64,000 nt of DNA from an uncultured Williamsia sp. GTDB lineage: Bacteria; Actinomycetota; Actinomycetes; Mycobacteriales; Mycobacteriaceae. The first letter of the stretch is position 1; the number at the start of each line of letters is the position of its first letter. Location of the stretch: assembly GCF_947494875.1 (NCBI RefSeq), contig NZ_CANLWM010000003.1:124001-188000 (forward strand), written 5' to 3'. Positions 5,202 through 21,009 of the stretch are shown in pieces. A model generated the notes under the pieces. That model did not search any database. It was not told the DNA's origin and saw only the letters and a program-made list of their open reading frames with translations. Made by a program: the position numbers and the translations under genes.

Positions 5202-5678
5202 TCATCTCAGCCCTACGCGGTGCAGTGCCTTCATCGTCTCGACGACCTCGTCGACGGGGCCGTCGACCACGACGCCGGGCGCGACCGTCGTGATCGGCAG
5301 CGGGGCGACCGGCGACACCGGAGCGCCCCACTCGTGCATCCATGTGGTGAGCTGCGTCGCCGACACCGCGTACACGATCCGGCCCAGCCCCACCCACGCG
5401 TGCGCGGCCGCGCACATGGGGCAGTGCTCCCCGGAGGTGTAGGTCGTCGTCTCGGCCCGATCCTCGGCGGCGAGGTTCTCCACGGCCCACAGGGCGATCG
5501 CGAGTTCGGGGTGCCGAGTGGCGTCGCCGCCGCCCACGCGGTTGCGGTCCTCGAACAGACGGGTGCCGGAGGCGTCGACGAGGACCGACCCGAACGGCTC
5601 GTCCCCGGCGTCGGCGGCCTCGCGGGCCAGCTCGACGCAGCGACGCACGTGGTCGACGTCGTCCGCGGAGATGGCCAT
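5202..5678 (-). CDS. Nucleoside deaminase (cytidine/guanine deaminase superfamily)
   Basis: A 158-aa zinc-dependent deaminase. The His-x-Glu motif is HPELA and the second zinc motif is EHCPMCAAA, together supplying one His, two Cys and the proton-shuttling Glu. The C-terminal half matches guanine deaminase/tRNA adenosine deaminase-like enzymes that act on free bases or nucleosides in the cytoplasm. I chose ATG 5676-5678 (MAISADDVDHV); longer frames upstream overlap the SnoaL gene. It sits 14 bases after the SnoaL-like gene, probably in the PadR-led run. Confidence 0.85.
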   Translation of the reverse strand: MAISADDVDHVRRCVELAREAADAGDEPFGSVLVDASGTRLFEDRNRVGGGDATRHPELAIALWAVENLAAEDRAETTTYTSGEHCPMCAAAHAWVGLGRIVYAVSATQLTTWMHEWGAPVSPVAPLPITTVAPGVVVDGPVDEVVETMKALHRVGLR

Positions 5679-5692
5679 CACCGCAGCGTAGG

Positions 5693-6088
5693 TCACGCGT
5701 CGGGTGCGGACGTGCCCATCTCCGCCGCGAACTCGACGGCCATCCTCGCCGATAGCGCCTGCGCGGCTCGCAGCGGCCGCACCATCACGGTGAAGTCGTC
5801 GATGAGTCCGTCGTCGTCGAGGTGGAGGACGTCGCACCCGTGCACCGTGAGGTCGTCGATCGTGGCGGTGAAGAACAGGACGTGGTCGCGCCCACCGACG
5901 TCGTCGACGGTCCTGACGTACCGGAAGTCCTGGAACACCCGTGTCACCGCACGCAGGATCGCGGCGGTGACGGGCTTGCCACGGTAGGGCGCGAAGGCCA
6001 CCGGTGAGGTGAACACCACGTCCTCTGCGAGGAGCGCGGCGATCGCGTCGTGGTCATCGGCCTCCACTGCCTTACGGAACTGCTGCAT
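5693..6088 (-). CDS. SnoaL/NTF2-like protein
   Basis: A 131-aa cone-barrel protein starting MQQFRKAVEADDHDAIAALLAEDVVF, the standard opening of the SnoaL/NTF2-like fold, with RVFQDFRYVRTVDDV and the closing DDDGLIDDFTVMVRPL strand. Such proteins act as small hydrolase or isomerase-like enzymes or ligand-binding domains. No specific substrate is visible. It lies between PadR and the deaminase on the same strand. Confidence 0.8.
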   Translation of the reverse strand: MQQFRKAVEADDHDAIAALLAEDVVFTSPVAFAPYRGKPVTAAILRAVTRVFQDFRYVRTVDDVGGRDHVLFFTATIDDLTVHGCDVLHLDDDGLIDDFTVMVRPLRAAQALSARMAVEFAAEMGTSAPDA

Positions 6089-6131
6089 GTCTGGTCCTTC
6101 GGGTCGGGATCGGATGTGGTCAACTCCGCAC

Positions 6132-6719
6132 CTATCGGTACGCGTCGTTCTGTGACGTGCGGCCGGCGAGACCACGCGCGTCGAGCACCTCGAGGACGCG
6201 TGCCCCCCATCGCAGCGACTCCTCCTCGAACATGCGCCCTCGCATCAGGGTCAGGTACGGGCCGACGCGCTCGGCGGTGGCGAGGAAGTCGGTCTCCGTG
6301 CGTCCGTCGAGCAGGCGATGCGCCATGCGGTCGTAGCGTGCGAGCTTGTCGCGGGCCAGTTGCATCCGCGTGCGCACGGCGTCGGCCACCGCGCCGGTGT
6401 CCCCGGCCTCCAGGGCGTGGACGGCAACCAGGTGTTCGTCACGGATGGCCGGGAGCCTGGGGGTGTGGGCGGACACCGCGCGCAGGGCGTCCCGGCCGGT
6501 GTCGGTGAGGCGGAACAGTCGCTTGTCGGGTCGTCCCTCCTGCGGGACGAGCCTCGCGACGACGACGCCGTCGTCGGCCATACGGTCGAGCTCCCGGTAG
6601 ACCTGCTGCGACGTGGCGGTCCAGAAGTTCGCCACCGTGGCGTCGAAGGCCTTGGACAGCTCGTATCCGGACATCTCGCCGTCGACGAGTGACGCCAGGA
6701 TGGCGCTGCGGAGCGACAT
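6132..6719 (-). CDS. PadR-family transcriptional regulator
   Basis: A 195-aa PadR protein: an N-terminal winged helix (SLRSAILASLVDGEMSGYELSKAF ... VYRELDRMADDGVV ... GRPDKRLFRLTDTGRDAL) and a C-terminal coiled-coil dimer region with an Arg/Leu-rich helix (residues about 105-185). PadR repressors usually respond to phenolic or toxic compounds and control neighbouring genes. It is divergent from the SGNH hydrolase, with a 12-bp palindrome (TCAAC-AA-GTTGA) in the gap. The ATG at 6717-6719 fits the family start (MSLRSAIL). Confidence 0.87.
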   Translation of the reverse strand: MSLRSAILASLVDGEMSGYELSKAFDATVANFWTATSQQVYRELDRMADDGVVVARLVPQEGRPDKRLFRLTDTGRDALRAVSAHTPRLPAIRDEHLVAVHALEAGDTGAVADAVRTRMQLARDKLARYDRMAHRLLDGRTETDFLATAERVGPYLTLMRGRMFEEESLRWGARVLEVLDARGLAGRTSQNDAYR

Positions 6720-6752
6720 GCTTGCCGACGCTACGGTCCGACGAGCCAATGG

Positions 6753-6764
6753 TCAACAAGTTGA
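6753..6764. promoter_or_regulatory. Candidate PadR operator palindrome
   Basis: Perfect inverted repeat TCAAC-AA-GTTGA in the 78-base gap between the divergent PadR and SGNH hydrolase genes. The local sequence is AT-richer than its surroundings (TTGAATATGACA follows), as expected for a promoter/operator. Assignment to PadR is inferred from position only. Confidence 0.4.
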
Positions 6765-6797
6765 ATATGACAAGCCGGTCCAGCAGAGTGGTCGAGC

Positions 6798-7574
6798 ATG
6801 ACGTACGACGGCGGTCGGTGGTCGCGCTTCGTCGCCCTCGGCGACAGTCAGACCGAGGGCCTGGCCGACGGTGACGAGCGGACCGGCTACCGCGGGTGGG
6901 CAGATCGACTGGCCGAACAGATGGCCCGATCGCAGCCGGGCGCCGTGTACGCGAACCTCGCCGTGCGGGGGCGACGAGCCGCGGAGGTCCGGTCCGAGCA
7001 GCTGCCTGCGGCACTGGCACTGCGACCGACGGTCGCCGCCGTGTCGGCGGGTGTGAACGACGTCCTTCGGACCGGGTTCGACGCACGCGCCGTCGCCGAC
7101 GAGCTCGACGCGATGTTCGTGGCGCTGCGGGCGATCGACTGCGTCGTCGTGACCATGACCTTTCCCCGCCTCGCGCACCCCGTCCCCGGGGGCGCGGCCA
7201 TCGGCCGGCGGATCACCGCCCTGAACCACGAGATCCGGCGCGTCGCGGCACGATCCGACGTCGCCGTCATCGATCTCGCGCTGCACGACGTGGCCTCGGA
7301 CCCACGGCTGTGGAGCCGGGATCGGTTGCACCTGAACAGCACAGGGCACCGGCGCCTCGCCGACGCGGCGGCCGACGTGCTCGGCGTCCCGGACAGCGAC
7401 GACGCCTGGGTCGTCCCGTTGCCTCCGATGCCGCGGTCGTCGCTGCGCGAACGCGTCGCCGCCGACACGCGGTGGACGGTCACGTTCCTGCTGCCGTGGC
7501 TGCTCCGGCGGGTTCGAGGGCGCTCGTCGGGCGACCGCAGGACAGCGAAACGGCCTCAGCTCGCCTCCGTCTGA
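6798..7574 (+). CDS. SGNH/GDSL-family hydrolase (esterase)
   Basis: A 258-aa serine esterase. Block I is FVALGDSQTEG (nucleophile Ser17), the block II glycine lies in NLAVRG, block III Asn is in SAGVNDVL, and block V supplies Asp and His in DRLHLNSTGH. The fold is complete and no signal peptide is visible, so a cytoplasmic esterase or acyltransferase is likely. The C-terminal 50 residues (RERVAADTRW onward) contain a short hydrophobic stretch ending in a basic tail. Divergent from PadR, which may control it. Its 3' end overlaps the convergent permease by 19 bases. Confidence 0.88.
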   Translation: MTYDGGRWSRFVALGDSQTEGLADGDERTGYRGWADRLAEQMARSQPGAVYANLAVRGRRAAEVRSEQLPAALALRPTVAAVSAGVNDVLRTGFDARAVADELDAMFVALRAIDCVVVTMTFPRLAHPVPGGAAIGRRITALNHEIRRVAARSDVAVIDLALHDVASDPRLWSRDRLHLNSTGHRRLADAAADVLGVPDSDDAWVVPLPPMPRSSLRERVAADTRWTVTFLLPWLLRRVRGRSSGDRRTAKRPQLASV

Positions 7575-12851: not shown

Positions 12852-14777
12852 ATGACGACATTCGACACCCCGCCCACGACCGCGACCCGTGTGCTCGGCA
12901 GTCTGACCGCCCCCGAGATCAGCCGCACCCGAGAGCTTCTCGGTGAGGCGGGCGCACTGACACCGACGACCAGGTTCGTCTACCTCGGCCTCGACGAGCC
13001 CGACAAGACCGATGTGCTCGCCTTCCAGGCCGGACAGGCACCGGCCCCGGCCCGCACCGCACGGGCGTTGCTGCTCGACACAACCAGCGGCGACACCCGC
13101 GACGCCCTCGTCGACCTCGACGCCGGGACCGTCACTTCGCGGACGATCGACGCCGCGGTCGGACAGGTCCCGATCCTCGACGAGGAGTTCGAGATCGTCG
13201 GGGAGTTCCTGTCCACCGAGCCACGGTGGATCGCCGCTCTCGAGTCCCGCGGCATCGACCCGGCGACGACCGTCGCCGTCCCGCTGTCCGCAGGCACCTA
13301 CGATCTGCCCGGCGAGGAGGGCCGCCGGATGGTCCGCTCGTTCGCGTTCGTCATGGATCATCCGAAGGACCATCCGTGGGCGCACCCTGTGGACGGTCTG
13401 TGCGCCTACGTCGACATCATCGGACGCGAGTTGGTCGACCTCATCGACTACCGCGTCTACGACGTCCCACGCGAGTCCGGCAACTTCGACGACCCCGCGG
13501 TCGCCGGCCCGCCGCTGGAGGGGCTCAAGCCCATCGAGATCACCCAACCCGAGGGCCCCAGCTTCACCGTCGACGGCGAGCACATCGAATGGGCGAACTG
13601 GAAGCTCGACATCTCCTTCGACGCCCGCGAAGGCCTCGTCCTGCGGCAGCTGAGTTATCTCGACCGGCCGGTGATGTACCGCGGGTCGATCAACGAGATG
13701 GTGGTGCCCTACGGGGATCCGTCACCGAACCGGTTCTGGCAGAACTATTTCGACACCGGTGAGTACGTCTACGGTCGCTACACGAACTCCCTGACGCTCG
13801 GCTGCGACTGTCTCGGCGAGATCCACTACTTCGACGCGGTGCTGGCCGACGAGCAGGGCAGCCCGCGGGTCATCGAGAACGCGATCTGCATGCACGAGGA
13901 GGACTACGGCACGCTGTGGAAGCACACGGACATCTTCACCGGATCGAGTGAGGTGCGTCGCCAGCGTCGCCTGGTCATCAGCTTCTTCACGACCGTCGGC
14001 AACTACGACTACGGCTTCTACTGGTACCTCTACCTCGACGGCACCATCGAACTCGAGGCCAAGCTGACCGGCGTGGCCTTCACGGCCGCGTACCCGCCCG
14101 AAGGGTCGGACTACCAGAGTCACGTCGCGCCCGGGCTGGGGCTGCCCTACCACCAGCATCTGTTCAACGCCCGCCTCGACATGACCGTCGACGGGGTCGC
14201 CAACGCCGTGGACGAGATCGACGCGGTGACGGTCCCGGTCGGCGACGGCAACCCGTGGGGCAATGCGTTCACCATGAGCGCCACCAGGATCGGTTCCGAA
14301 CGTGACGGGGTACGCCGCGCCAACGCCGAGGTCGGGCGCACCTGGCACATCGCGAGCAGCGACAAGACCAATCGGATGGGTGCGCCGACGAGTTACGCGT
14401 TGCACGCCCAGCAATCGCCCACCCTGCTCGCCGACCCGTCGTCCTCGATCGCCAAGAGGGCGCCGTTCACCACGAACCAGGTGTGGGTGACGCGGTATGA
14501 CGTCCACCAACGCTATGCCGCGGGCGATTTCGTCAACCAGAGCGACGGATCTCAGGGGGTGGTGGGCTACCAGGCCGCTGACCGATCGCTCGACGGAGAG
14601 GACCTCGTCGTGTGGCACACCTTCGGACTCACGCACTTCCCGCGGGCCGAGGACTGGCCGGTGATGCCGACCGACTACGCCGGGTTCACCTTGAGGCCCT
14701 ACAACTTCTTCGACGCCAACCCTGTGATGAACGTCCCGCCGTCGACCGCTGCGCACTGTGACCACGGTTGCTCGTGA
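12852..14777 (+). CDS. Copper-containing primary-amine oxidase
   Basis: A 641-aa enzyme converting primary amines plus O2 and water to aldehyde, ammonia and H2O2. The topaquinone precursor tyrosine lies in TVGNYDYG (Tyr385); the copper ligands are His434 and His436 (YHQHLF) and His595 (LTHFPR); the catalytic base is Asp301 (YFDTGEY). All are offset by exactly +3 from the numbering I recall for Arthrobacter globiformis phenylethylamine oxidase (298, 382, 431, 433, 592), so this is very probably an ortholog acting on aromatic monoamines. No signal peptide, hence cytoplasmic. Downstream of its permease; the cofactor is self-made from Tyr with Cu and O2. Confidence 0.95.
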   Translation: MTTFDTPPTTATRVLGSLTAPEISRTRELLGEAGALTPTTRFVYLGLDEPDKTDVLAFQAGQAPAPARTARALLLDTTSGDTRDALVDLDAGTVTSRTIDAAVGQVPILDEEFEIVGEFLSTEPRWIAALESRGIDPATTVAVPLSAGTYDLPGEEGRRMVRSFAFVMDHPKDHPWAHPVDGLCAYVDIIGRELVDLIDYRVYDVPRESGNFDDPAVAGPPLEGLKPIEITQPEGPSFTVDGEHIEWANWKLDISFDAREGLVLRQLSYLDRPVMYRGSINEMVVPYGDPSPNRFWQNYFDTGEYVYGRYTNSLTLGCDCLGEIHYFDAVLADEQGSPRVIENAICMHEEDYGTLWKHTDIFTGSSEVRRQRRLVISFFTTVGNYDYGFYWYLYLDGTIELEAKLTGVAFTAAYPPEGSDYQSHVAPGLGLPYHQHLFNARLDMTVDGVANAVDEIDAVTVPVGDGNPWGNAFTMSATRIGSERDGVRRANAEVGRTWHIASSDKTNRMGAPTSYALHAQQSPTLLADPSSSIAKRAPFTTNQVWVTRYDVHQRYAAGDFVNQSDGSQGVVGYQAADRSLDGEDLVVWHTFGLTHFPRAEDWPVMPTDYAGFTLRPYNFFDANPVMNVPPSTAAHCDHGCS

Positions 14778-15324
14778 CCCCGACCCGGTGCGGGCCGTAC
14801 GCGGTCTGCACCGGATCGGTGGGGGAGTCGCAGCGGTGCTGGCGGTCGCCGCGGCGGTGATCCACGTCGCCATGGTGACGACCGCACCCGATCCGGTCCA
14901 CGTCGCTCTGCTCGTCCCCGCCGTCGGCTGCGTGTGGTGCGGGGTAGGGCTGCTGAGGTCCCCGGGCCTGGCCGGGTGGGTGACGACGGCGGTGACCGAG
15001 GCTGTGATGCTGAGCGCTCACCTCGCGACGGCGGGTTCGCCCGGAGGCCACGCCGGACACGGGATGGTGATGCCGTCGGGGTCGTCGGGTTCGGCGCTGA
15101 TGTCGGCGTCGATGGCGATCGCGTCCACCGGTCTCGTGCTGGCGGTGGCCGCGATCTGGGCGCTCACCCCGACGGTGCGAGCGCCGAGAGCAGTTGCAGC
15201 ATCTCGTGGGAGCGTGAACCCGGTGTCGCGGTGTACACCAGCAGATAGTGGGACTGGGCGGGGTCGACGAGGGTCTGACAAGACAGTTCGAGTGGTCCGA
15301 GCTGCGGATGGACGAGGTGTTTGA
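14758..15324 (+). CDS. Small membrane protein overlapping amine oxidase and a convergent regulator
   Basis: A 188-aa frame starting GTG 14758, inside the last 20 bases of the amine oxidase. Residues about 20-140 form four hydrophobic segments with a histidine/methionine-rich loop (GGHAGHGMVMP), which could bind copper. After residue 140 the sequence turns arginine-rich and runs 161 bases into the 3' end of the convergent regulator gene, whose own C-terminus is well conserved. The genuine protein may end near residue 145; the tail may be read-through after loss of a stop. Possible role in copper supply to the oxidase is inference only. Confidence 0.5.
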   Translation: MTTVARDPDPVRAVRGLHRIGGGVAAVLAVAAAVIHVAMVTTAPDPVHVALLVPAVGCVWCGVGLLRSPGLAGWVTTAVTEAVMLSAHLATAGSPGGHAGHGMVMPSGSSGSALMSASMAIASTGLVLAVAAIWALTPTVRAPRAVAASRGSVNPVSRCTPADSGTGRGRRGSDKTVRVVRAADGRGV

Positions 15325-15997
15325 CGTCCTGCGGTCGGATCCCGACCTCGTGGCGCTCCCAGACGGCGCGGAACTGCGCGCTCCGGTCCATCAGCAGGTC
15401 GGCGAGTTCGGCGCCCCGCGAGGGTCGGCCGCGCAGCGTGATGTTCTCGCGGAGCCCTGAGGCGAACATGCGCGAGAGGAAGTCGTGGTCCTCCGGGGCG
15501 TACAGCGCACGTGTCGCGGGGTCGGTGAACCAGCGGTAGCCGAGGCTGCGGGACGGCCCGGTGAAGCGCGTGAGATCGCCGGTGAGCGCGACCCCCAGCG
15601 GGCTCTGACGCAACGTCTCGCCGAGTTCGGTGACGATCTCGGCCGGGGTGTCGCCGAGCCGGTCGAGGATCCGTAGTAACCCGGGTCCGATGTGGTCGCC
15701 GGATGCGCCCGTCGACGGCGGTCGGTGACCGGCCAGTCGGAACAGGTGGTCGCGCTCGGCCACCGACAGATGCAGCCCCTGGGCGATGGAGGCCATCATC
15801 TGCTCCGACGGGTTCGGACCCGTCCCGCGCTCGAGCCGCGCGTAGTAGTCGGTCGACATGTGGGACAACGCCGCCACCTCCTCGCGACGCAGTCCGTCCG
15901 TGCGTCGCCGTGGCCCACGTAGCAGGCCGACGTCCTCGGGCTGCAGCGCGACGCGGCGGCGTCGGAGGAACTCGGCCAGTCCCGCCCGGTCGATCAC
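15164..15997 (-). CDS. Helix-turn-helix regulator with MmyB-like ligand domain
   Basis: A 278-aa protein: XRE-type helix-turn-helix at residues about 8-75 (EFLRRRRVALQPEDVGL ... LRREEVAALSHMSTDYYARLERG) and a C-terminal PAS-like MmyB domain (SLGYRWFTDPATRALY ... TLVDPAQSHYLLVYTATPGS). Start at GTG 15995-15997 (VIDRAGLAEF) matches relatives. It is divergent from an SDR at 16165, and the same regulator/SDR layout recurs at 21019-22779. Such regulators typically repress the adjacent reductase and respond to small lipophilic ligands. Confidence 0.87.
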   Translation of the reverse strand: MIDRAGLAEFLRRRRVALQPEDVGLLRGPRRRTDGLRREEVAALSHMSTDYYARLERGTGPNPSEQMMASIAQGLHLSVAERDHLFRLAGHRPPSTGASGDHIGPGLLRILDRLGDTPAEIVTELGETLRQSPLGVALTGDLTRFTGPSRSLGYRWFTDPATRALYAPEDHDFLSRMFASGLRENITLRGRPSRGAELADLLMDRSAQFRAVWERHEVGIRPQDVKHLVHPQLGPLELSCQTLVDPAQSHYLLVYTATPGSRSHEMLQLLSALAPSG

Positions 15998-16164
15998 CGG
16001 GGCACCTCGACGGTCATGCGGTCGATTCTCGTGCCGATGCGGTGTGTGAGCCACGCCTTCTCGATCCACCCCTGGGCGGCGACGCGAAGGGTGGATCGTC
16101 GGGTCCTGGTTCGTCGATGACCGGGTGGGCCACGGTGGGGGGACACATCAGCGAAGGAGTGGAC

Positions 16165-17711: not shown

Positions 17712-18572
17712 TCAGTGGCGTACCGCGCGGAAAACATCGACCGGGTGCGGGATCCGCGATTCGCCGTCCGCATCGGACACCGCGACCGCCCGGAGGTAGT
17801 CGCGCACCGGACCCCGCAGTTCCGGGGTCAGTCGGGCTTGGACGGCGAAGTCCAGCACCTCGTCGCTCGTCGCGAGCAGGGCCACCAACGCGTCCAGCGT
17901 CACCGACTCCTCGAGGATGATCCCGGCGTCGTCGAATGCCTTCCGGACGTCAGCGCTGAACCACTGCGGGTGGTCCTCCAGTGGTGGCGCCAGCACGTCG
18001 ACCAACTCGTTGAGTGCGGCGCGGGGGGCGTTGAGCACCCACAGTTGCCCGCCGGGACGCACCAGCTGCAGGGCGGAACGCAATGTCGCGGCCACGTCGG
18101 CGACGTAGTACATCGAGTGGACGAAGACGACGACGTCGAACGTCTCGTCGAGAGCAGCCTCGGCGAACGAGGTCACGTGCACGTCGATGCTGAGTTCGTG
18201 CGCCTCCAATGCGGACATCTCCGCGGCGAACAAGGCTGCGCTCCCCGACCAGGGCTCGATGCCGACGTAGCGCACCGGTCGCCCGGGAACCGCTCGCAGG
18301 AGACCCTGAGCGAGCTGCGAGTCCAGCGAGCCGTCGCCGCAGCCGACCGAGAGCACCGACACCGGTCCGTCGTCCAATCTCGCCAGGTGTCCGGCGAGGT
18401 GATCCGCGATCAGGCCGCGTTGGTCGGAGAGTCGCTCGAACGCGGCGTGGTCGCGCGCGTAGGACTCGGGGTCGAGACAGGGCAGGGCGGGGGAGTCGCG
18501 GCGTGCGACACGCAACTCGTCGAGGATCGCGACGGCGGTGTCGGTCGATCGGGACGGCACAGAGCTGAACAC
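17712..18572 (-). CDS. Class I SAM-dependent methyltransferase (histamine N-methyltransferase-like)
   Basis: A 286-aa methyltransferase. Motif I is SVLSVGCGDGSLDSQLA, the acidic ribose-binding residue is in YVGIEPW, and post-I/IV strands are DVVVFVHSMYYVAD and PGGQLWVLNAP. The form of motif I (GCGxGxxD then GIEPW) and an N-terminal helical part are reminiscent of histamine N-methyltransferase-like enzymes, so an amine or imidazole nitrogen acceptor is possible. Divergent from a second methyltransferase with a 74-base gap holding a perfect 12-bp palindrome. The pair plus the dioxygenase downstream looks like a small biosynthetic or modification unit. Confidence 0.82.
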   Translation of the reverse strand: MFSSVPSRSTDTAVAILDELRVARRDSPALPCLDPESYARDHAAFERLSDQRGLIADHLAGHLARLDDGPVSVLSVGCGDGSLDSQLAQGLLRAVPGRPVRYVGIEPWSGSAALFAAEMSALEAHELSIDVHVTSFAEAALDETFDVVVFVHSMYYVADVAATLRSALQLVRPGGQLWVLNAPRAALNELVDVLAPPLEDHPQWFSADVRKAFDDAGIILEESVTLDALVALLATSDEVLDFAVQARLTPELRGPVRDYLRAVAVSDADGESRIPHPVDVFRAVRH

Positions 18573-18598
18573 ACTGCCGAGTGAACCACGTCACGACT

Positions 18599-18610
18599 GT
18601 ACATATGTAC
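18599..18610. promoter_or_regulatory. Perfect palindrome GTACATATGTAC between divergent methyltransferases
   Basis: A 12-bp perfect palindrome lies in the intergenic region between the two methyltransferase genes, 26 bases from the minus-strand start and 36 bases from the GTG at 18647. AT-rich centre in very GC-rich DNA. It is a candidate operator for both; no regulator gene is adjacent. Confidence 0.45.
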
Positions 18611-18646
18611 GCGCACGTATGCTGGCGACAACGACAAAGGAGTCCT

Positions 18647-19459
18647 GTGAGCAGCAAAGACACGGCCGAACGAAGTCTCGAGCACTGGAGTGAGGCGGGT
18701 CGCGCCGAGATGGAGGCCTTTTACGCCCTGGCCACCGAGGACTACCGGCAACTGGCGCTCGCCGCCGACTGGCCGACCCTCCTGGGATCCCGCGCACACG
18801 ACGGATGGTCGTTGCTGGACGTGGCCTGTGGAAGCGGCAAGTTCCCCACGGCGCTGCGCCGTCACACCGATCTCTCGACGGTGCCGGAGGTGGCCTACGA
18901 CCTGCTCGACCCGTCGGAGTTCTCCGTCGCCGAGGCGCGCAGTGCTCTGGGCGCCCCGTTCGCGGCCAGACACGACCTGGTCATGACGCTGCAGGATCTG
19001 CCCGCCGAGCACTCGGACTACGACGTCGTCTGGGCCACGCACGCGCTCTACGCACTTCCCCCGGATGAATTGGACGCCGCGGCAAAGCGTTTCGTGGCCG
19101 CGCTCGCCCCGGGCGGTCTCGGACTGGTCGCACAGGCGACGGCGACGTCGCACTACCTCGCCTTCTACGACGCGTTTCGCGCGGGCGTCCACGAGGCGAC
19201 GCCGTACACGACCGCCGAGCAGGTGCGCGACGCCCTGACCCGTGCCGGTGCCGACGTCCGCGATCAGCGGATCACCTACACCACCGGGACGTCCGATCGT
19301 GTTGTCGCCGAGGGCTTCCTCCAGCGCTGCGCCTTCGACGACACCGTGTCGCTGGAGCAGATGGAGGCAGCGCCCGTTCTGGGCGACTACCTCGCCTCCT
19401 GCCGCGACGCGTCCGGTTCCTACACCTTCTCCCACGAGGCGGCTCTGCTGTGGCTCTGA
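18647..19459 (+). CDS. Class I SAM-dependent methyltransferase
   Basis: A 270-aa enzyme from GTG 18647, chosen because AAGGAG lies at 18637-18642 and upstream codons cover the palindrome. Motif I is LLDVACGSGKFPTAL, followed by an acidic strand end (AYDLLDPS), motif IV YDVVWATHALYALPP and motif VI APGGLGLVAQA. The N-terminal helix EHWSEAGRAEMEAFYALA is a typical methyltransferase cap. Its last 10 bases overlap the dioxygenase gene, so the two are translationally coupled. Substrate unknown. Confidence 0.85.
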   Translation: MSSKDTAERSLEHWSEAGRAEMEAFYALATEDYRQLALAADWPTLLGSRAHDGWSLLDVACGSGKFPTALRRHTDLSTVPEVAYDLLDPSEFSVAEARSALGAPFAARHDLVMTLQDLPAEHSDYDVVWATHALYALPPDELDAAAKRFVAALAPGGLGLVAQATATSHYLAFYDAFRAGVHEATPYTTAEQVRDALTRAGADVRDQRITYTTGTSDRVVAEGFLQRCAFDDTVSLEQMEAAPVLGDYLASCRDASGSYTFSHEAALLWL

Positions 19460-20436
19460 GCAATCCGACGACCAACGACCGCCTGCCCGAGGAGAATCGC
19501 GACGGCGGCATCGAACAGGACTGGGCCGGCGACGATCAGGACTGGTGGGACTGGTACGTCACCCTGGCCGCCAACGATGCCGTCCCCACCGAGTTGGTCG
19601 ACGGGCCCGGACTGCCCGACGCCGCACCGGCGAGCGACGAGCAGGTCGAGCGTGAGTTGGCCGAGCCCTACGACCTCGATTCCGCTGCGGTGGACGCCTT
19701 CGCCCGTGATGCGTTCGTCCGGCTGCCCGGTGTCCTCTCGCCGGCCGTGGTTCGACGTCTCGCCGAGCGACTCGAGGAGTTGTTGCGCGCGGAGCACGGC
19801 GACGACGTCGCAGGCCGGTTCACGGCGCTGGAGCAGATGTGGCTGCACGACGATCTGATGCGCGCGGTCGCGCTGTCGCCACGCATCGGGGGACTGGCCG
19901 CGACGCTCCTCGGCGAGCCGGGCGTGCGGCTGTACCACGACAACGCCCTGTCGAAGGAGCCCGGCTGCGGCCGGACGCCCTGGCACCACGACGCCGAGCA
20001 CTTCCCACTGCAGACCACGCAGGCGGTGACCGCGTGGATCCCCATGTCCGCGATCCCCGGTCGCATGGGTCCACTGTCGTTCGCGCGTGGCCGCGACGTG
20101 CTGTCGGAGGTGTCCGACCTCGAGTTCGACAAGGTCGGGACGTCGTACGACGAGGCCGTCTCGCACCGCTTCGTCGAGCGTGACGTCGCCGTCGAGGCCG
20201 GACCGTTCGCGGTGGGCGATGTGTCGTTCCACTCCGCGCTGTGTCTCCACACCGCGGGCCCGAACCTCACCACGCAGCCCCGGCGGGCCCTGGCGACAAC
20301 GTATTTCGCCGACGGTGCTCGGGTTGTCGATTCACCGACGTTGATCAGCGGCACGTGGCGTGAGTTCCTCCCTGGCGTCGAGCCCGGCGGCCTTGCGGTG
20401 TCCGACCTGAACCCGGTGGTCGGCCGCTCCAGCTGA
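19450..20436 (+). CDS. Phytanoyl-CoA dioxygenase (PhyH) family Fe(II)/2-oxoglutarate oxygenase
   Basis: A 328-aa non-haem iron dioxygenase. The facial triad is visible as HHD in TPWHHDAEHFPL and a distal His in SALCLHTAGPN, with the 2-oxoglutarate-binding Arg a few residues on (QPRRAL). A W-rich N-terminal segment (DWWDWYVTLAAND) precedes the double-stranded beta-helix core. It hydroxylates or otherwise oxidises a small substrate using O2, 2-oxoglutarate and Fe(II). GTG start overlaps the stop of the methyltransferase. A methylation-plus-hydroxylation route for one metabolite is the simplest reading. Confidence 0.87.
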   Translation: MALSNPTTNDRLPEENRDGGIEQDWAGDDQDWWDWYVTLAANDAVPTELVDGPGLPDAAPASDEQVERELAEPYDLDSAAVDAFARDAFVRLPGVLSPAVVRRLAERLEELLRAEHGDDVAGRFTALEQMWLHDDLMRAVALSPRIGGLAATLLGEPGVRLYHDNALSKEPGCGRTPWHHDAEHFPLQTTQAVTAWIPMSAIPGRMGPLSFARGRDVLSEVSDLEFDKVGTSYDEAVSHRFVERDVAVEAGPFAVGDVSFHSALCLHTAGPNLTTQPRRALATTYFADGARVVDSPTLISGTWREFLPGVEPGGLAVSDLNPVVGRSS

Positions 20437-20454: not shown

Positions 20455-21009
20455 TCACACCGGATCGGACAGGGTGGCGCTGAAGGCGACGGTCACCTCG
20501 TCGACCACCTTCATCGCGCCGAGCAACTGCGAGTACGGCTTGATGCCGAAATCGGACTGTCGCACAACGGATTCCATGGACAGGTGGTGACGCTCGTCCT
20601 CGGTCGTCACCGCCAGGTCGACGACGTGGTCATGAGTGACGCCGTGGATCTCGAGGGTGCCGGTCAACCGCCGGCCCGTGTCGGTGGCGTCGATCGTGTC
20701 CGAGCGGAAGGTGACGGTCGGGAACCGCTTTGCGTCGAGTGTCTTCAGCGCGTTCGACCGTGCCACCATCTTTTCGGGGGCGAGCAGGGGCGTGATGCCG
20801 CCCTCGCCGTGCACCACGTCGATCGAGTCGAGATCGGCGGTGAGCTCGACCGCCGTCGGCTGCCCACCATCCCACTCGACGACCGCGTGCCACCGGGACA
20901 CCTCGATCGTCAGGCGGTGGCCCATGGTCGCGGCCTTGCCGGTGACACCGGTGCGGATCTCGAGAGTCGCGTCGTCGGAGGGAGTGAGAGTCCAGCTCTG
21001 ATCGGCCAT
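20455..21009 (-). CDS. YceI-family lipid-binding protein
   Basis: A 184-aa lipocalin-like YceI protein without a signal peptide. Family features: SWTLTPSDDATLEIRTGV at the start, the ARSNALKTLDAKRFPTVTFRS segment, LTGTLEIHGVTHDHVVDL, and the closing FSATLSDPV strand. These eight-stranded barrels bind long isoprenoid or amphipathic molecules. The GKAATMGHRL variant suggests the actinobacterial cytoplasmic type. Convergent with the dioxygenase (18-base gap) and 9 bases downstream of the regulator at 21019 on the same strand. Confidence 0.88.
   Translation of the reverse strand: MADQSWTLTPSDDATLEIRTGVTGKAATMGHRLTIEVSRWHAVVEWDGGQPTAVELTADLDSIDVVHGEGGITPLLAPEKMVARSNALKTLDAKRFPTVTFRSDTIDATDTGRRLTGTLEIHGVTHDHVVDLAVTTEDERHHLSMESVVRQSDFGIKPYSQLLGAMKVVDEVTVAFSATLSDPV

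Follow-up and report, generated by a model that had tools for sequence, protein, structure and literature searches.

The MT1-MT2-PhyH cassette

The window, a 64,000-nucleotide stretch of the genome of an uncultured Williamsia species, carries a cassette of three genes, which we call MT1, MT2 and PhyH (Table 1). MT1 is divergent from MT2, and PhyH follows MT2. Frames and coordinates confirm what a sequence-only reading had described here, a compact cluster of divergent methyltransferases and a PhyH-type oxygenase in which the second methyltransferase is coupled to the oxygenase by a 10-base overlap. The start of MT2 is likely to be the GTG at 18647, judged from the AAAGGAG that precedes it; the GTG at 18581, given as the start in a mechanical ORF list, was dropped in its favour. 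The nearest named relative is W. serinedens, whose PhyH is 93-94% identical to that of the window.

Table 1. Features of the cassette and its intergenic region (positions in the window).
Feature	Position	Strand	Description
MT1	17712-18572	-	HNMT-family class I SAM methyltransferase (by sequence), 286 aa, GTG start
GTGGTTCACT element, 7 nt upstream of the MT1 start	18580-18589	-	Putative promoter, leaderless MT1 transcript
MT2 ribosome-binding site AAAGGAG	18636-18642	+	Read from the sequence
MT2	18647-19459	+	Class I SAM methyltransferase, unnamed family, 270 aa, HNMT-like predicted fold
MT2/PhyH overlap, exactly 10 bases	19450-19459	+	Read from the sequence
PhyH	19450-20436	+	PhyH-type Fe(II)/2-oxoglutarate oxygenase, 328 aa, Pfam PF05721 E=1.7e-19
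PhyH N-terminal aromatic motif W......WWDWY, residues 25-36	19522-19557	+	Invariant, 19 homologues
PhyH H179-x-D181 codons	19984-19992	+	Iron-binding triad; invariant, 19 homologues
PhyH H267 to R278 codons	20248-20283	+	H267 (iron), R278 (presumed 2-oxoglutarate salt bridge); invariant, 19 homologues

The three genes form a conserved unit

MT1, MT2 and PhyH are a conserved unit, beyond chance association. Among 101 related genomes, 11 have a PhyH orthologue (E<1e-90); the identical 11, and no others, have MT1 (E<1e-75) and MT2 (E<1e-100). A scan of further PhyH loci, taking one genome per species (n=79), found the complete set of MT1, MT2 and PhyH at 69 loci from Actinobacteria, Planctomycetes and Gammaproteobacteria. 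A further seven loci carry PhyH and MT2 together with a third methyltransferase, MT3, and the pairs PhyH-MT2 and PhyH-MT3, and PhyH alone, were each seen once. Several gene orders occur (MT1< >MT2-PhyH, MT1< >PhyH-MT2 and PhyH-MT2> <MT1) with a constant gene set, and the protein trees of MT1, MT2 and PhyH are correlated, with r of 0.85-0.93 where permutation reached 0.31 at most. The sequence-only reading had taken the genes to function together and had proposed genome-context comparison as the check; it had named a lack of co-occurrence as what would refute it, and the strict co-occurrence in the 101 relatives and the 69 complete loci support it on this point.

The family is patchy, with MT2 in 3 of 396 genomes sampled evenly across the phylum and full-length PhyH (E<1e-130) in 14 of 399 sampled evenly across the order. 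Cassette sequences from Nocardiaceae are placed among those of Nocardioidaceae in the tree, which suggests that the cassette has been transferred between orders. No fourth gene recurs beside it across all the loci scanned, and its precursor is therefore probably a common metabolite.

Some relatives lie outside this pattern. A search of a plasmid collection returned distant PhyH homologues only, with MT1 absent, and no common theme links the neighbourhoods of these homologues (GMC oxidoreductase, hydrolases, sugar catabolism); one, on a Streptomyces plasmid (L109, 11812-12864), lacks the methyltransferases and adjoins hydrolases and a GMC oxidoreductase. In Amycolatopsis (L093, 7965-8948) a PhyH relative, again without the methyltransferases, adjoins an EamA transporter. 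A contig labelled Candidatus Melainabacteria (L061) has a cassette of actinobacterial type, closest to that of Frankiaceae, and is probably a misassigned bin.

MT1, MT2 and MT3

Class I SAM-methyltransferase models match MT1 (Pfam Methyltransf_23, 12 and 11) and MT2 alike, and single-sequence searches of the PDB with either returned generic methyltransferases only. The closer relationship of MT1 emerged with a profile built from 14 orthologues, which matched human histamine N-methyltransferase (HNMT) with E=2.3e-21, compared with 1e-6 for the next family; on these scores MT1 is classed as a member of the HNMT family. The alignment covers most of its length (MT1 residues 27-246, HNMT residues 11-248), taking in the methyltransferase core and the N-terminal substrate helix, and the resemblance to HNMT noted in the sequence-only reading is thus borne out. 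The same cannot be said of histamine itself as the substrate. Residues E28 and Q143 of HNMT, known to bind the imidazole ring of histamine, are replaced in MT1 orthologues by an invariant Gln (Q51 of MT1) and an invariant His (H152); because both have changed, histamine is not supported, and the likeness of MT1 to HNMT appears to be one of fold that does not imply HNMT activity. MT1 also differs from HNMT in being bacterial and clustered with an oxygenase.

A profile of MT2 gave weak matches only in the PDB, with no close solved relative by sequence. Its AlphaFold2 model (pLDDT 91.1) has human HNMT as its best PDB fold match, with a TM-score of 0.69-0.74, and profile-profile comparison relates MT1 to MT2 with E=2.7e-13. 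The two methyltransferases are predicted to share the fold of an imidazole N-methyltransferase (HNMT), in the case of MT2 from the model.

MT3 replaces MT1 in Sphingomonas, Erythrobacter and marine betaproteobacteria, and in Sphingomonas and the marine betaproteobacteria PhyH and MT2 are retained. Among class I methyltransferases, MT3 is of a more generic kind. At the Erythrobacter locus (L064, 8001-9874) MT3 lies directly after PhyH with no MT2 between them, and this organism may do without MT2 or encode it at another place.

The PhyH-type oxygenase

The iron-binding triad of PhyH, reported as intact in the sequence-only reading, is indeed so: H179, D181 and H267, together with R278, are invariant in a 19-sequence alignment in which identity falls as low as 39%. 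The Asp of the HxD motif argues against halogenation. The closest solved relatives, by both sequence and fold, are SnoK (E=1.6e-22), SnoN and MysH, which share the iron triad and match the PhyH core with 18-28% identity; EctD is distant (E=9e-6). PhyH differs from SnoK, SnoN and MysH in an additional N-terminal region, which lies outside their solved core and is not present in them. This region carries the WWDWY motif, with W25, W32, W33, W35 and Y36 invariant in the 19 homologues, and in the predicted structure (pLDDT 92.0) residues 29-39 form a helix modelled with high confidence. The genomic setting also appears to differ from that of the MysH and SnoK systems, as no further gene, those for mycosporine and nogalamycin included, recurs across the cassette loci.

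Linkage to EgtD and to transporters

EgtD makes hercynine (Nalpha-trimethylhistidine) from histidine, and EgtB adds sulfur to it on the way to ergothioneine. A substantial fraction of the bacteria in soil and sea make hercynine, which is usually regarded solely as the ergothioneine precursor. It is also widespread in cyanobacteria (PMC3826126).

In two separate lineages an EgtD gene adjoins the cassette. In two Rubripirellula genomes (L100 and L106) it lies directly upstream of PhyH-MT2 and scores 404 and 393 bits against the EgtD model TIGR03438, for which the curated cut-off is 291 bits. In a Frankiaceae MAG (L063) an EgtD of 350 bits stands directly behind MT1, its start in an ATGA overlap with the MT1 stop; aligned to M. 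smegmatis EgtD, it keeps the STIGN and TE-x-S motifs and the histidine-specific residues. These linkages come from one genus, represented by two genomes, and from one MAG contig of 5.3 kb. Two such independent adjacencies are unlikely to arise by chance: a rough estimate, which assumes 4000 genes per genome, EgtD in 80% of genomes and independence, gives p of ~5e-4 or less, with ~0.03 or fewer expected.

EgtD is unlinked to the cassette in most cassette genomes, including that of the window, where EgtD and EgtB sit together on another contig (C1). Of 28 cassette genomes tested 25 have EgtD, the remaining three being MAGs or SAGs. We rejected this genome-level co-occurrence as proof, since EgtD is common anyway, with base rates of 79/101 in the relatives (78%), 158/200 in Sphingomonadaceae (79%) and 55/246 in Planctomycetes (22%); its presence in all 11 cassette-bearing relatives gives p=0.06.

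No EgtB gene lies beside the cassette at any locus scanned. Genomes with EgtB as well as EgtD at curated level make up 21 of 29 in one set of cassette genomes and 15 of 17 in a second. Three EgtD-bearing cassette MAGs, from Rubripirellula (G820), Nitriliruptoraceae (G844) and the genome of L063 (G1291), have no convincing EgtB, bearing in mind that MAGs may be incomplete, and in two of these three the EgtD is the linked one. Small-genome marine betaproteobacteria with the cassette (L174, L175 and L176) have a divergent EgtD/EgtB pair that falls below the curated egt cut-offs and stands beside two ABC permeases, phosphonate-type by eye.

Transporter genes were found at several loci. In two gammaproteobacteria MT2-PhyH is preceded, in the same operon, by a gene that joins a binding protein of the OpuAC type to a permease (5585-7111 at L080), by sequence a betaine transporter of the ProX/EgtU type; the closest solved relatives of the binding protein are ProX and the ergothioneine-binding EgtUC, about equally close. 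A gene for an MFS transporter adjoins the cassette at five non-actinobacterial loci (L076, L080, L092, L100 and L106), and those of L092, L100 and L106 are related to one another.

A candidate pathway from hercynine

What was observed directly is the gene unit with its conservation and distribution, the families to which its enzymes belong, an iron triad that is intact, the linkage to EgtD and the betaine-type transporter. An N-methylated small molecule, as the sequence-only reading had proposed, is the likely class of product. The physical linkage to EgtD, the betaine transporter and the HNMT fold together point to hercynine, and the cassette is most likely a hercynine-tailoring pathway. As a full reading, to which we give a probability of roughly 55%, it would be a self-contained, horizontally moving cassette that turns hercynine into a methylated, oxygenated histidine betaine, where substrate, order of reactions, positions and product are all inferred. 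Host EgtD would first trimethylate histidine to hercynine. MT1 would then methylate hercynine, or its oxidised form, on the imidazole ring or elsewhere. PhyH would insert oxygen, hydroxylation being the default reaction for an enzyme of the HxD type, with its invariant Trp/Tyr motif perhaps holding the trimethylammonium end, and MT2 would add a second methyl group. About evenly balanced, in our judgement, is the more specific proposal that hercynine feeds a third branch in addition to those leading to ergothioneine and selenoneine, in which a horizontally transferred cassette of Actinobacteria, Planctomycetes and Proteobacteria yields a doubly methylated, hydroxylated histidine betaine serving as solute, protectant or signal.

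The substrate might instead be ergothioneine, methylated on its sulfur or a ring nitrogen and oxidised by the cassette, in a sink, a repair route or the making of a new antioxidant. The joint presence of EgtB and EgtD in most cassette genomes would fit, as would a gammaproteobacterial binding protein no more distant from EgtUC than from ProX. We nevertheless think it unlikely, as in both lineages the gene adjoining the cassette is EgtD and not EgtB, and three cassette MAGs have EgtD with no convincing EgtB. Another imidazole or amine (histidine, histamine, a polyamine or an amino acid) is a somewhat fainter prospect; the EgtD linkage would then be incidental, or EgtD would act afterwards on the tailored product. 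Membership of MT1 in the HNMT family speaks for such a substrate, and so does a copper amine oxidase of the AGAO/histamine-oxidase type ~3 kb from the cassette in the window, whereas the changes at the HNMT E28 and Q143 positions and the histidine-specific residues retained by EgtD speak against it. The oxidase itself (12852-14777; primary-amine oxidase NF008559, 840 bits), for which histamine-type substrates are plausible, was considered as a partner of the cassette and dropped, since it is not a recurrent neighbour.

The relationship of PhyH to SnoK, SnoN and MysH raises the question of an unrelated secondary metabolite, such as a sugar, a polyketide or a sunscreen-like compound, and the PhyH relatives that stand without methyltransferases in Amycolatopsis and on the Streptomyces plasmid are in keeping with this. 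Against it, no scaffold-building enzyme recurs beside the cassette, and the solved relatives combine low identity with the lack of the N-terminal aromatic region; we hold it to be improbable, marginally more so than the other imidazoles and amines. Least probable is that PhyH is an oxidative demethylase, in a cassette that would take off one methyl while adding others, or would degrade a methylated compound. Enzymes of the PhyH family (PHYHD1/FJS) can demethylate 2'-O-methyl nucleosides (PMC12709175), yet the nearest relatives found here are SnoK, SnoN and MysH and not PHYHD1, and the presence of two methyltransferases in the unit speaks for synthesis.

Relation to known systems

In the literature searched, neither the cluster nor hercynine tailoring by bacterial genes nor an HNMT-like bacterial enzyme of this kind was found described. 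The view of the sequence-only reading that no described cluster matches holds within this literature, to the extent of which the cassette is a previously undescribed biosynthetic one assembled from known enzyme families. It shares with the ergothioneine pathway (EgtA-E) the proposed use of hercynine and the association with EgtD, but is without EgtB, EgtC and EgtE and has instead a PhyH-type oxygenase and two further methyltransferases. Betaine pathways with two methyltransferases, and EctD-type hydroxylation of compatible solutes, are known, and the likeness to them lies in stepwise methylation and PhyH-type hydroxylation of a small zwitterion. The cassette appears to differ from them, with no relatives of GSMT/SDMT or of ectoine synthesis found: at E<=0.01 the profiles of MT1 and MT2 matched neither GSMT nor SDMT in the PDB, and EctD is only distantly related to PhyH.

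A chemical parallel is 6-methylhercynine, from the sponge Characella pachastrelloides, a natural hercynine with an extra ring methyl at C-2 (PMC8779493). It belongs to the product class proposed here, and differs in the C-2 position of its methyl group and in being sponge-derived with no genes known. The cassette would offer candidate producers, and genes to look for, when sponges yield methylated hercynines of this kind. If the hercynine reading is right, an overlooked class of histidine betaines branches from hercynine, made by Williamsia, strains of the Rhodococcus fascians group, Nocardioides, mycobacteria, Sphingomonas and small-genome marine bacteria. Two methyltransferase groups as yet unnamed (MT2 and MT3) and a PhyH subfamily would also gain a pointer to their function. 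The linkage to EgtD and hercynine, the betaine transporter, the substitution by MT3 and the conservation across phyla go beyond the sequence-only reading.

Intergenic region and flanking genes

The sequence GTGGTTNNCT occurs in 33 of 64 cassette intergenic regions, against 0.14 in shuffles, and stands 6-8 nt before the start of MT1 (Williamsia, Rhodococcus, Nocardioides) or of MT2 (Mycolicibacterium, Pseudonocardia). This spacing and enrichment suggest a leaderless transcript from a shared type of promoter. A perfect palindrome, GTACATATGTAC, lies between MT1 and MT2 at 18599-18610; it was rejected as an operator, as inspection by eye showed no conservation of it between these genes in other species.

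Convergent with PhyH is a gene for a YceI-family protein (20455-21009, minus strand), and some of the other Williamsia loci (L030 and L038) keep this neighbour as well. On either side of the cassette lies an XRE regulator with an MmyB-like ligand-binding domain (PF17765); the two resemble each other, stand at 15164-16069 and 21019-~21930, both on the minus strand, and each is followed by a short-chain dehydrogenase on the opposite strand.
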